Shown piece after piece: positions 33,962 to 43,689 of a stretch of 64,000 nt of DNA (positions are counted from its first letter, which is position 1; every line of letters starts with the position of its first letter). A program made the translations under genes and the position numbers. The stretch is from Adhaeribacter aquaticus DSM 16391 (GTDB lineage: Bacteria; Bacteroidota; Bacteroidia; Cytophagales; Hymenobacteraceae): NCBI RefSeq assembly GCF_000473365.1, contig NZ_KI421517.1:2195504-2259503 (forward strand). The letters run 5' to 3'. A model generated the notes under the pieces. That model worked only from the letters and a program-made list of their open reading frames with translations, searched no databases and was not told where the DNA came from.

Positions 33962-34669
33962 TTAAAGTTGTTTTGTTTGCTTTGGAGCTTCTGTAGCACC
34001 GCCAGAAGGATTTTCAGTTCCAGTTACCTGGTTGGTATTTTGCTCTGTACTTGCATCTATAGTATCAACATTTGCTGGTCCATCTGATGCAGCATCTCCC
34101 TGGCCTTGTAATACACTTTTTACATACATCGCAATTTTCCAACGCTCCTCTGGATTTACCTGAGTACCATGAGGCATCATTCTACCTCTTCCGTGGGTGA
34201 TAACGTGGTAAATGTAACCCGTAGAAACAGCTTTTAATCTGTCTTGGGTTAAGTTTGCAACCCCTTTAAACTTTTGGCCTACTAAACCATCACCTGCTCC
34301 TTCAGCTCCGTGGCAAGGAGTACAAAAACGGGCATAAAGAACTTCACCTTCTTGTAAAGTAGCTTCGTTAGCTACTAGAGGATTCTTTAATTTTTGTCCC
34401 GCTTCTTCTGGGCTGTTTTTATCAATGTGGTTATAATATCCTAATTTACCTCTGGCAATAGTACCTTGAGCAGGAATCCGCATGGTCATTCCTGAAGGGT
34501 TTACCGGGTTTTTCTCCGTTTGCTTTAAAGGTTCGTAAGCTGCATCATCATACATTTGATTTGCATACTCCCTCCCTGGGTCATTTGCATCTGGCGAACA
34601 TGAAAAAACTAAGGCAGTGGAAAAAGCGACTAACGAAGCTTTGAGACCTATTTTGAAATCTATTTTCAT
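33962..34669 (-). CDS. actE: Alternative complex III subunit ActE, mono-heme cytochrome c lipoprotein
   Basis: A 235-residue lipoprotein: a signal peptide with VFSC, Cys24. It has a single class-I cytochrome c domain, with heme motif CTPCH at 116-120 and candidate Met ligand in GRGRMMPHG. The last 50 residues are low-complexity, rich in Thr, Asn and Gly. In solved ACIII structures ActE sits at the periplasmic face near ActA. Its ATG overlaps the actD stop by one base (TAATG), indicating coupled translation. Confidence 0.94.
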   Translation of the reverse strand: MKIDFKIGLKASLVAFSTALVFSCSPDANDPGREYANQMYDDAAYEPLKQTEKNPVNPSGMTMRIPAQGTIARGKLGYYNHIDKNSPEEAGQKLKNPLVANEATLQEGEVLYARFCTPCHGAEGAGDGLVGQKFKGVANLTQDRLKAVSTGYIYHVITHGRGRMMPHGTQVNPEERWKIAMYVKSVLQGQGDAASDGPANVDTIDASTEQNTNQVTGTENPSGGATEAPKQTKQL

Positions 34670-35196
34670 TATTTTGCTACCTCCTTCTCGTTTACTTCTA
34701 TAGCACCATTGTCACGTAGAAGGGTATCTAATTTTTTGATATCTGTTTTACCTTCCTGTACTTCGATAGCCATAATAAATTTATCATCAGTAGACCTTAC
34801 ATCCATAACTGGTACTTTAATTCTTGGATAAAGTCCTGATATAATAAAAAATGTTATAACCATACCATGAGCCGTAAATAAAACGGTTAATTCAAAGCTC
34901 ACCGGAATAAAGGCTGGTAATGCAATATGTGGTTTACCACCAATAATCATTGGCCAATCAAATCCTAACATATAAATCTGCATCCACAACGCAAATGCTA
35001 GGCCACAACATCCGTAAAGGAATGCGGCTATTGGCAGTTTTGTTCTTTCAATACCTAAGGCATCATCAATACCGTGAACTGGATATGGAGAAAAAACAGT
35101 AGTAATTTTTGTGCCGGCAGCTCTAATTTTATCAATTGCATGAAGAAGTACATCTTCATCGTCATAAACACCGAGTATGTATTTCTTATTTGTCAT
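34669..35196 (-). CDS. actD: Alternative complex III subunit ActD (DUF3341)
   Basis: A 175-residue protein with an N-terminal alpha/beta part ([19 protein letters not shown]) and two transmembrane helices (about 58-78 and 100-122), as in DUF3341/ActD. It has no cofactor motif. It stabilises the complex at the cytoplasmic side in known structures. Its first codons overlap the 3' end of actC by 11 bp, and its stop overlaps actE. Confidence 0.93.
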
Positions 35197-41055: not shown

Positions 41056-41099
41056 TGCTTAGATTGCTTTTTTAGTAAGGTGAAACTACATTACGGCCA

Positions 41100-41130
41100 C
41101 AAATCTACTATGCGAATTTTATTATTCAAA
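41100..41130 (-). promoter_or_regulatory. Consensus promoter of the ACIII/oxidase operon
   Basis: On the minus strand, TTTG (41130-41127), a 19-bp spacer and TAGATTTG (41107-41100) match TTTG-N19-TAnnTTTG exactly. This predicts a transcription start near 41093 and a leader of roughly 40 nt before the actA ATG. Confidence 0.82.
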
Positions 41131-41155
41131 CTCACATTTCCCTTAATTTTGGCAA

Positions 41156-41186
41156 TATAGCCTGTTGATTTACTTTAAAGGCTATA
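41156..41186. promoter_or_regulatory. Inverted repeat upstream of the actA promoter
   Basis: A perfect 8-bp dyad TATAGCCT/AGGCTATA (41156-41163 and 41179-41186) with a 15-bp spacer, 26 bp upstream of the -33 element of the actA promoter. The position fits an activator or repressor site; no regulator is identified. Confidence 0.4.
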
Positions 41187-41453
41187 ACTTGCTAATTACC
41201 AAATGGTTATACCTTAAAAATTCTTTATTTAGAATTATTTTAAATTATGTTTATATAAATTAGGAATATACTTTTAAAAATCAGGCTCCTAGGCAGCTTT
41301 GAGCTAAACCTTCTATTACTTAATAGCATTTTATAGATATACTAATTATATTATATCTTTTAAGTTGTATTTTGAACCTTCCTACTCCTTATAATTCTCT
41401 GTTCTTTTCGCCTTCCTTTATTTAAGTATGCGCTTCATCAAATTAAACAACCG

Positions 41454-41485
41454 TTTGTTATACAAATTAATTATTCTTATCTTTG
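41454..41485 (+). promoter_or_regulatory. Promoter of the rpsF-rpsR-rplI operon
   Basis: TTTG (41454-41457), a 20-bp spacer and TATCTTTG (41478-41485), an exact -7 element. The predicted start near 41492 leaves a leader of about 30 nt, too short for the S6:S18-binding hairpin found in the leaders of many other bacteria. Confidence 0.75.
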
Positions 41486-41521
41486 CGCCTTCATTTACAA
41501 AATTAAATTTCGACAACCTAG

Positions 41522-41902
41522 ATGGAATTAAAAAATTATGAAACGGTCTTCATTTTGACCCCGTTACTAAACGAGGCCCAAATGCAAGAAACGGTCGAGA
41601 AGTTCAGACAGGTGCTTAAGGAAAATGGCGCCGACATTATTCACGAAGAGAATTGGGGTTTACGTAAGTTAGCTTATCCAATTCAGAAAAAGTCAACAGG
41701 TTTCTACCACCTGATCGAGTTTACAGCTCCAGGTACTATTGTAGATACTTTAGAACTTGCTTATCGTCGTGATGAAAAAGTAGTTCGCTTCTTGACCACA
41801 GTATTAGACAAGCACGCTGTTTCTTACAACGAGCGTCGTAGAAATGGTGAAATGAATCAGCAAAAAGCTGCTAAAAGAGAAAAGGAGGCACAAGCATCAT
41901 GA
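41522..41902 (+). CDS. rpsF: 30S ribosomal protein bS6
   Basis: A 126-residue ribosomal protein that forms a heterodimer with bS18 on the 30S platform. [36 protein letters not shown] and [17 protein letters not shown] are family signatures, followed by a basic, Gln-rich tail of about 25 residues. The start ATG has no Shine-Dalgarno sequence. Its last four bases overlap the rpsR start (ATGA), and the rpsR Shine-Dalgarno lies inside its final codons. Confidence 0.97.
41881..41888 (+). promoter_or_regulatory. Strong Shine-Dalgarno sequence of rpsR
   Basis: AAAGGAGG, ten bases before the rpsR ATG and embedded in the end of the rpsF coding sequence. It is exceptional in a window where the other starts I inspected lack such a motif. 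Confidence 0.85.
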
Positions 41903-42150
41903 GTTTAGTTAACGAAAAAATCCATAAGCAAGATACCCGCAAGAAATACTGCCGTTTTAAGAAAAATGGTATCCAGTATATCGATTACAAAGACGGTAAC
42001 TTCTTGTTAAAATTTGTAAACGAGCAAGGTAAAGTTCTTCCTCGTCGTATTACAGGTACCAGCCTGAAATTTCAGCGTCGTGTAGCACAAGCAGTTGCTC
42101 GTGCGCGCCACTTGGCTATTTTGCCATACGTTACAGATTCATTAAAATAA
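41899..42150 (+). CDS. rpsR: 30S ribosomal protein bS18
   Basis: An 83-residue 30S platform protein that pairs with bS6. [18 protein letters not shown] and the basic [30 protein letters not shown] core identify it. In Bacteroidota ribosomes bS18 together with bS6 and bS21 helps to hide the 16S anti-Shine-Dalgarno tail, so its strong Shine-Dalgarno sequence is notable. Its start overlaps the end of rpsF by four bases, and its stop codon forms part of the rplI Shine-Dalgarno. Confidence 0.97.
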
Positions 42151-42156
42151 GGAGGT
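42148..42156 (+). promoter_or_regulatory. Perfect Shine-Dalgarno sequence of rplI
   Basis: TAAGGAGGT is a nine-base complement of the conserved 16S rRNA 3' end, nine bases before the rplI ATG. Its first three bases are the rpsR stop codon. Confidence 0.88.
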
Positions 42157-42165
42157 ACTTAGAAG

Positions 42166-42609
42166 ATGGAAATTATTTTAAAAGACGACGTTAAAGGCTT
42201 AGGCTTTAAAAACGATATCGTAACTGTTAAGCCAGGATACGGCCGTAATTACTTGATCCCACAAGGTATTGCTGTAATTGCTGATAAATCAAACAAAAAA
42301 GTAGTAGCTGAAAATATTCGTCAGGCTGCTCACAAAGCTGAAAAAGTAAGATTAGACGCTCAGTCTATAGCTGATCAGATTGGTGATCAGGTATATGAAT
42401 TAAAAGCTAAGGTAGGTGAAAGCGGCAAAATTTTTGGTGCTGTTACGACTACGCAGCTTTCTGATGCGTTACGTGCTAAAGGTATTGAAGTAGATCGTAA
42501 GAAAATTTCTTTTGATCAGGAAGTTAAATCTGCTGGTGAATACACTGCTTCTATCGCATTACACAAAGAAGTGAAGCATTCTGTACGTTTTAACGTAGTA
42601 GCAGAATAA
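42166..42609 (+). CDS. rplI: 50S ribosomal protein bL9
   Basis: A 147-residue two-domain ribosomal protein at the base of the L1 stalk. The N-terminal MEIILKDDVKGLGFKNDIVTVKPGYGRNYLIPQG signature (residues 1-34 in substance), the long connecting helix and the C-terminal VGESGKIFGAVTTTQLSDAL domain are all present. It is last in the rpsF-rpsR-rplI operon, 15 bp after rpsR, and is followed by a terminator. Confidence 0.97.
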   Translation: MEIILKDDVKGLGFKNDIVTVKPGYGRNYLIPQGIAVIADKSNKKVVAENIRQAAHKAEKVRLDAQSIADQIGDQVYELKAKVGESGKIFGAVTTTQLSDALRAKGIEVDRKKISFDQEVKSAGEYTASIALHKEVKHSVRFNVVAE

Positions 42610-42630
42610 GCATACTTTGGTTTAAAGGAA

Positions 42631-42665
42631 AAGTCCTGCTGTGAATACGGCAGGACTTTTTTTAT
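42631..42665 (+). terminator. Terminator of the rpsF operon
   Basis: A 9-bp stem AAGTCCTGC/GCAGGACTT (42631-42639 with 42650-42658), a 10-nt loop and a T-run reaching about 42664. Confidence 0.87.
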
Positions 42666-42708
42666 TTTACACAGTAAACTAACTTACGAATCCATACGCT
42701 TAAATACT

Positions 42709-43689
42709 ATGGCAACTTCTTTTCGTACTGAAATACAAGTTTCCCCCCGCCCCTTCCGACTTAATTCCGAATCAATTATTCTTACCACCGGTTCTTGTTT
42801 TGCCGTAGTAATAGGCCAAAAAATCAAAAACTATAAGGTTAACACTTTAGTAAACCCTTTTGGTACTATTTTCAATCCTATTTCTTTGTTTAGTTTGCTA
42901 GATGCTGGCTTATTTCCGGAGCAGCCGTTTACAGGAAATTTAGTAGCCCGCGACGAGCGGTGGTATGCTTATGATTTGCATTCTTCTTTTTCGGCCCCAA
43001 ACCAAGAAGATTTGCTTTTTTCTATTCAGAAAGCCCGGAACGAAGTATACTCTTATCTGGCCTCAGCTGATGTACTCATTCTTACATTAGGTACTGCGGT
43101 CGGGTATTTGCATAAAGAAAGTAACCAGTTAGTAGCTAACTGCCATAAAATTGCCCAGCAACAATTTGAAAAGAAACTGATTTCTACAGCAGAGATTACG
43201 GCGACTTTTTCCGCTCTTTATTTAAAACTGAAGCACCTAAATCCAAAGCTACAGGTAATTGTAACGGTAAGCCCGGTGCGTCATATTAAAGAGACCTTGG
43301 AACTAAATAGCGTCAGCAAATCTATTTTACGAATAGCCTGTCACGAAATAGCAGGACAATTAGCCGATGTGACTTACTTCCCGGCTTATGAACTTTTACT
43401 GGATGATTTACGGGATTATCGTTTTTACAAACGCGATATGATTCATCCTTCCGAAGAAGCGGAAGATTATATCTGGGGAAAGTTTATCCAAGCCTTCTTT
43501 GAGGAGCCGTTTCAACAATTTACGAAAGAGTGGGATAAAATTAAATTAGCCTTAGCCCATAAACCATTTCATCCGGATGCTCCGGCGCACCAACAATTTT
43601 TGCGAAATACCTTGGCCAAACTGGAACAGATACATCTACATACAGATTGCAGTCAGGAAATAGCGCAGGTAAAAAGTCAGCTTCGGTAA
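42709..43689 (+). CDS. GSCFA-domain protein
   Basis: A 326-residue protein with the defining GSCFA motif at about residues 27-31 ([12 protein letters not shown]). It has a second conserved block [11 protein letters not shown], then [16 protein letters not shown] and a C-terminal [17 protein letters not shown]. The GSCFA family belongs to the SGNH-hydrolase-like superfamily, in which the Ser of GSC and the D..H near the C-terminus would be catalytic. Its substrates are uncharacterised. No signal peptide is apparent, so it is probably cytoplasmic. It is followed 56 bp later by the DUF255 protein. Confidence 0.9.

Follow-up and report, generated by a model that had tools for sequence, protein, structure and literature searches.

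Strong Shine-Dalgarno (SD) motifs precede rpsR and rplI at the internal starts of the rpsF-rpsR-rplI operon of Adhaeribacter aquaticus DSM 16391. They are complementary to the organism's intact 16S rRNA tail, are conserved in Hymenobacteraceae beyond coding constraint, and are kept or missing together. A third and stronger motif, with the same phyletic pattern, lies before an actE-like gene of a putative alternative complex III operon. The distribution of the motifs suggests a small gene set read by a special ribosome state.

Motifs in the A. aquaticus genome

The window (the whole analyzed stretch of 64,000 nt) contains the following features.

41478..41485, plus strand: candidate Bacteroidota -7 promoter box TATCTTTG, 5' of rpsF, from comparison with the consensus TAnnTTTG
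41522-42609, plus strand: rpsF-rpsR-rplI operon
41522..41902, plus strand: rpsF (bS6), start without an SD (-1.9 kcal/mol)
41881..41888, plus strand: SD of rpsR, AAAGGAGG (-14.4 kcal/mol)
41899..42150, plus strand: rpsR (bS18), its ATG overlapping the rpsF TGA as ATGA
42148..42156, plus strand: SD of rplI, TAAGGAGGT (-15.3 kcal/mol over AAGGAGGT)
42166..42609, plus strand: rplI (bL9)
42630..42663, plus strand: terminator-like hairpin and T run 3' of rplI, spotted by eye
33962..34669, minus strand: actE-like gene, alternative complex III cytochrome c subunit by weak matches and operon order
34669..35196, minus strand: actD-like gene, named from operon order, its last codons forming the actE SD
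34679..34687, minus strand: SD of the actE-like gene, GAAGGAGGT (-16.6 kcal/mol), within the actD-like 3' end

The rpsR motif lies ten bases upstream of the ATG at 41899, within the 3' end of rpsF, whose codons there encode K-E-A. The rplI motif lies nine bases upstream of the ATG at 42166, and the TAA of TAAGGAGGT is the rpsR stop. Both would form 8-bp helices with the 16S 3' tail found in the A. aquaticus genome, GGATCACCTCCTTTCT. The presence, spacing and complementarity of these motifs are as described in the initial annotation, and the motifs are under selection. Predicted local folding gives no clear message, the rpsR GGAGG being partly paired and the rplI GGAGG mostly open with the rplI AUG paired.

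Before rpsF, TATCTTTG would read as a -7 box under the consensus TAnnTTTG, which we take to be that of Bacteroidota; the rpsF leader would then span very roughly 30-36 nt, and a short leader is plausible. A scan of positions 41060-42720 with Rfam gave no match over the gathering scores, and the sub-threshold matches fall on the hairpin at 42630..42663.

The annotation had placed strong SDs only before rpsR and rplI, which the actE-like gene contradicts: GAAGGAGGT, nine bases before its ATG, is stronger than the rpsR motif. Among the 50 window genes scored, the actE-like gene and rplI reach -9 kcal/mol or better and the others are at -7.9 or weaker. The actE-like start overlaps the actD-like stop (TAATG). 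Both gene names follow from an operon order that we take to be that of alternative complex III, with neighbors resembling molybdopterin/iron-sulphur, NrfD-like and multiheme cytochrome proteins. The actE-like protein gives weak c-type cytochrome matches, nearly all below curated cut-offs, and the actD-like gene has no NCBIfam match.

Starts were scored by the best contiguous helix between the 16S tail and positions -22 to -4, in a 1.36-Mb sample (about a quarter of the genome) that includes the window. Of 1,106 called genes, 1,077 were scored; rpsR is absent from the gene calls, hence outside the 1,077, and was scored separately. Three mock windows yield 2, 2 and 3 starts at -13.5 kcal/mol or better and 15, 20 and 26 at -10.5 or better; in the real sequence the numbers are six and 24. 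In this sample AGGAG is found 17 times at the 5-11 nt spacing, compared with 3-8 in six upstream bins. SD use in A. aquaticus lies close to background except for a small genuine class, and the anti-SD is intact, in agreement with the earlier premise that Bacteroidota largely do without SD pairing. The 8-mer AAGGAGGT occurs at 214 sites genome-wide, against 205 for the mirror pattern. Since the bare 8-mer is not enriched, its position and conservation count and its frequency does not.

The ribosomal genes scored were those of the S10/spc/alpha/rplKAJL block together with rpsF, rpsR, rplI and rpsU. Within the block, SDs were found only in rplA and, weakly, in rplE (-9.3 kcal/mol).

L302 3336-4025, minus strand: rplA with AAGGAGG (-13.5 kcal/mol), 12-nt gap to the upstream gene

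Conservation and joint loss in Hymenobacteraceae

We searched 60 family genomes and scored rpsR and rplI in 59, the sixtieth being 78% complete and its rpsR not obtained. At a cut-off of -10.2 kcal/mol, both motifs occur in 36 genomes, neither in 23 and one alone in none; the motifs are thus conserved in close relatives, whereas the annotation had named a lack of such conservation as refuting its proposal. By genus, both are present in 7/7 genomes of the A. aquaticus genus, 14/14 of g3 (probably Pontibacter, from sequence and tree), 14/14 of g4 (including Rufibacter roseus), 1/2 of g116, 0/14 of g2 (including Hymenobacter pini) and 0/8 of g5 (on the same grounds probably Hymenobacter-like). 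The strong SD that rpsU can carry in the phylum, according to the annotation, was not found here: rpsU scores -5.4 kcal/mol in A. aquaticus, and none of the 59 family genomes has an SD at this gene. No SD was found before rpsF in 58 family genomes either. The rplA motif was considered as a further conserved member and dropped, being scattered over 9 of the 50 family genomes examined (of 60).

When bS6 (tail removed), bS18, bL9 and bS21 are used to build a tree, the 22 Hymenobacter-like genomes form one clade (support 1.0) amid motif-keeping genera, and genome G291, with neither motif, is sister to G292, with both (support 0.99). Parsimony places the motif at the family base (node support 0.83; rpsR motif in 10 of 13 outgroups). 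Each of rpsR and rplI then requires two changes within the family, and these fall on shared branches, giving two concerted losses, one in the Hymenobacter-like clade and one in species G291. Before rpsR, G291 and G292 differ at three of the five GGAGG bases and at one of 21 other compared bases. In G291 (L427, L159) the rpsR and rplI SDs are gone and the actE SD is weakened, while its sister retains all three.

For actE, 24 starts were obtained out of 25 family genomes. All 15 motif-keeping genomes among them have an identical motif, which is weakened to -11.5 kcal/mol in G291 and absent from all eight Hymenobacter-like genomes; in the 80 named loci, actE falls within the flanks of six, with the motif in three motif-keepers and in none of three Hymenobacter. 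The joint loss of the rpsR, rplI and actE motifs suggests a shared trans-acting condition. The 16S tail pattern GGATCACCTCCTTTCT was matched in 30 of the 60 family genomes, covering all six genera and G291 (the other 30 were unmatched), and Tyr54 of bS21, the signature residue of the pocket, is present in 59/59 genomes, motif losers included. The anti-SD has therefore not been lost in the matched genomes, losers among them, and neither the tail nor Tyr54 accounts for the loss of the motifs. Comparison of bS6, bS18 and bS21 by eye in 11 genomes revealed no clear change that would explain the losses.

A ferritin-like gene was picked from the top-scoring list for comparison.

L310 8755-9600, plus strand: ferritin-like gene with a moderate SD (relatives L443-L466)

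Its SD is weaker and less constant, reaching -9 kcal/mol or better in 11 of the 16 motif-keepers and in 0/8 Hymenobacter-like genomes; no homologue was found in G291. Well-spaced AGGAG was counted 77 times at the rpsR, rplI, actE and ferritin-like genes of the motif-keeping genera. Other genes of the fetched loci show no clear excess (3, against bins of 0-3, in motif-keepers; 3, against bins of 0-4, in Hymenobacter-like genomes).

Comparison of the operon junctions, the check originally proposed, shows conservation beyond coding constraint in codon choice before rpsR and in spacer columns before rplI. K/E-rich protein tails might spell GGAGG by chance, and both rpsF and actD end in such tails; a motif of this kind also lies within the tail of the upstream neighbor of L333:17189-17440, a gene with homologues in 2 of 25 genomes, its own included. 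We conditioned the codon test on amino acids able to encode the motif with correct spacing to the start, with the small bias that the motif-forming reading is taken if a tail offers two; a cruder test was discarded because its loci were selected by the motif itself. Motif-forming codons are used in 80 of the 84 qualifying rpsF tails (of 136). Elsewhere in the A. aquaticus genome they form 144 of 1,569 such tripeptides (7/67 in last-15-codon stretches), and in sequence flanking the named loci 199 of 1,496 (47/167 in last-15-codon stretches, rpsF tails included). A matched control was available for 40 named loci; of these, 36 use motif-forming codons where 5.8 would be expected (P about 1e-29 on the assumption of independent loci, which does not hold for related ones). 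The rplI motif lies in non-coding sequence; across 36 rplI spacers, entropy is 0-0.37 bits in the AGGAGG columns and 0.92-1.72 in those that follow. In 14 scored actD tails, the K-E codons are always AAG GAG amid synonymous variation at codons -12 to -7. On these three grounds a coding artefact is rejected, and we give it scarcely any credence.

The Hymenobacter-like actD tails (L430, L432, L434-L438) have AAA GAA in 7/7 cases where the other genera use AAG GAG. These loci are richer in GC (0.55 vs 0.44) and yet use AAA GAA, as if an SD were avoided.

Wider survey and gene packing

The wider survey comprised 137 loci, 59 from the family and 78 named, after two named duplicates were dropped. 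At the -10.2 kcal/mol cut-off, both motifs are present in 62 loci, the rpsR motif alone in 28 (90 in all) and neither in 47; the rplI motif alone was found in none. This dependence of rplI on rpsR has one exception at a cut-off of -10.9 kcal/mol and six at -12, because some rpsR energies then fall just short.

For rpsU the survey covered 50 of the 80 named genomes, with orders assigned from their record titles. Sphingobacteriales have SDs at rpsR and rpsU in 9/9 genomes and at rplI in 7/9. Among 34 named Cytophagales, 33 were scored at all three genes, with SDs at rpsR in 18, rpsU in 9, rplI in 4 and none in 12, three of the latter being Hymenobacter; five of them carry Hymenobacteraceae names, and two members of the family set, Rufibacter roseus and Hymenobacter pini, are counted here a second time. 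The single Maribacter shows an SD at rpsU only. Of three Bacteroidales, one has SDs at rpsR and rplI, one at rpsR (its rpsU was not found) and one has none; three further named genomes, of unassigned order, have an SD at rpsR only. Complementary loss of the rpsU and rpsR SDs was considered and rejected, both being present in 6/33 Cytophagales and 9/9 Sphingobacteriales and, with rplI included, none in 12/33 Cytophagales.

Motif presence follows gene geometry. Where rpsF and rpsR overlap, the rpsR motif occurs in 80/83 loci, at a gap of 1-20 nt in 10/51 and at wider gaps in 0/3. At an rplI cut-off of -9.2 kcal/mol, loci with the rpsR motif have the rplI motif in 68/77 cases with an rplI gap of up to 30 nt and in 0/13 with a wider one, and loci without the rpsR motif have it in 0/47 (27 tight, 20 wide). 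In A. aquaticus, starts at -10.5 kcal/mol or better make up 3/69 co-directional overlapping genes (mocks 2, 2), 4/130 at a gap of 1-25 nt (mocks 0, 5), 7/184 at 26-100 nt (mocks 3, 0) and 10/694 other genes (mocks 10, 13), with rplI among the last because rpsR is uncalled. The SD excess thus lies in co-directional downstream genes, and first genes show none. General SD use in close gene pairs was rejected for A. aquaticus, since most such pairs lack an SD. The dependence on geometry and the co-directional excess favor a role for cistron packing.

Readings of the motifs and published precedents

The motifs could well be working SD elements in a lineage that otherwise starts translation without SDs, read by 30S subunits with a free 16S tail; from the comparative sequence data we tentatively favor this reading. 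A minority of 30S subunits would have a free tail, their bS21/bS18/bS6 pocket being incomplete, not yet complete, or opened, and would prefer the rpsR, rplI and actE starts, whereas rpsF upstream would start by the ordinary SD-independent route. At rpsR the feedback loop would be closed, bS18 being part of the pocket. To this may be added, speculatively and by analogy, the rplI product bL9, which promotes 30S maturation in E. coli, where L9 reduces immature 16S in 30S particles according to excerpts of PMC4399890. Ribosome pairing with the motifs, their use by pocket-incomplete subunits, and feedback are all three steps that we infer.

Several results argue for the free-tail reading: the absence of genomes with one operon motif alone, the codon choice in rpsF and near-invariance of the rplI spacer columns, the changes of rpsR and rplI on the same branches with actE absent or weakened alongside, and the lack of an SD peak in other genes of the fetched loci. 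In excerpts of PMC9976891 it also has a precedent, mutation or depletion of bS21 raising the translation of strong-SD reporters in Flavobacterium johnsoniae. Against it stand the non-ribosomal actE, the lineages that manage without any of the three SDs (the 12 Cytophagales above), and the identical Tyr54 and 16S tail of motif losers. In Hymenobacteraceae rpsU lacks an SD, so that bS21-lacking ribosomes would act on genes other than rpsU. The bS18/bS6 feedback proposed in the initial annotation is accordingly supported in part: near-background SD use, the intact anti-SD and the constrained motifs speak for it, and the actE motif, rpsU, the 8-bp helices and a packing that also fits translational coupling speak against it. 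Its observation of the rpsR and rplI motifs is, as a whole, partly confirmed.

Pure bS18 feedback has a serious competitor in SD-assisted re-initiation, since actE encodes no ribosomal protein and the motif genes lie close behind their upstream neighbors. The motif would hold a terminating ribosome at an adjoining or overlapping start, with no sensing of ribosome state, an explanation that we regard as possible but rather doubt; equally doubtful is its corollary that the motifs set the subunit ratios bS6:bS18, bS18:bL9 and ActD:ActE. The motif genes are indeed closely packed downstream cistrons (rpsR and actE overlapping, rplI at 12-15 nt, rplA at 12 nt, the ferritin-like gene at 20 nt), the rplI motif is tied to a short gap, and starts at -10.5 kcal/mol or better exceed the mocks solely among co-directional genes, which also weighs against the free-tail reading. 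Against re-initiation alone stand the lack of an SD in most close pairs of A. aquaticus, the actE overlap kept without one in 7/8 Hymenobacter-like genomes, the rpsR overlap and 15-nt rplI gap of G291 with neither motif, and the absence of an rplI motif from 27/27 tight loci without the rpsR motif. The two could act at once, the second start of coupled cistrons being open solely to ribosomes whose 16S tail is free and coupling being conditional on ribosome state; this would unite the geometry with the concerted loss at the price of more assumptions than either model alone, and we consider it improbable. Functionless relics would fit the rarity of SDs in A. aquaticus, but near-invariance in 36 genomes and synonymous constraint make them very improbable.

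Going further along the free-tail reading, rpsR, rplI, actE and partly the ferritin-like gene might constitute a small trans-dependent SD regulon in most non-Hymenobacter Hymenobacteraceae, which Hymenobacter and one species have lost or are losing while keeping the anti-SD. If so, free-16S-tail ribosomes would read the regulon and tie ribosome assembly state to the respiratory chain; we think this extension somewhat unlikely.

The core idea, with SDs at rpsR and rpsU, possible self-control by bS18 and bS21, and an rplI SD in some Bacteroidia, is already published in PMC9976891. In the excerpts available, strong SDs often precede rpsU and/or rpsR in several orders, Cytophagales among them (a point repeated in excerpts of PMC8710568), rplI is listed with other ribosomal genes among further SD genes of certain Bacteroidia (citing Jha 2021), and self-control by bS21 and/or bS18 is raised as a possibility. 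The same excerpts report a test of SD-linked rpsU autoregulation in F. johnsoniae, give rpsU helices of 9-13 bp and infer a different control for rpsR-type SDs. Cytophagia are SD-scarce with CCUCC conserved in excerpts of PMC10783764, which show 0.1-2% for three species.

As far as these excerpts describe it, the F. johnsoniae rpsU system shares with ours a strong SD, an SD-poor genome and an occluded anti-SD, and for rpsR a product belonging to the occluding pocket. Here, in contrast, rpsU lacks an SD, the helices at rpsR and rplI have 8 bp rather than 9-13 bp, and the motif genes are operon-internal, include a non-ribosomal one and are known from sequence alone. The rpsR and rplI SDs of Bacteroidia excerpted in PMC9976891 concern the same genes at similar strength, with Cytophagales rpsR listed; the nested rplI/rpsR pattern, the Hymenobacteraceae losses and the actE motif were not found in those excerpts, supplements aside. 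In excerpts of PMC10931766, bS6:bS18 bind the rpsF leader in E. coli and B. subtilis, so that the same operon is controlled by its own products; here the motifs lie at internal starts, there is no Rfam leader match, and the leader is probably too short.

In the open-access literature searched (supplements outside the search), neither an SD before actE nor a concerted SD loss was found, and no paper combined 'alternative complex III' with 'Shine-Dalgarno'. The third gene, the concerted losses and the dependence of rplI on the rpsR motif and a short gap were not encountered in that literature. The list of SD genes now reaches past ribosomal proteins, and the published feedback model gives no prediction of this. 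Related genera and one pair of sister species, alike in their 16S tail, either retain or lack the entire motif set. They offer a natural experiment on the use of SD pairing as a regulatory code in SD-blind bacteria.

The strongest motif among the 1,077 scored genes, AGAAAGGAGGT (-20.7 kcal/mol), precedes an 88-aa ORF with no NCBIfam match (L346 16327-16593, plus strand), and may be a chance occurrence or mark a genuine SD gene.
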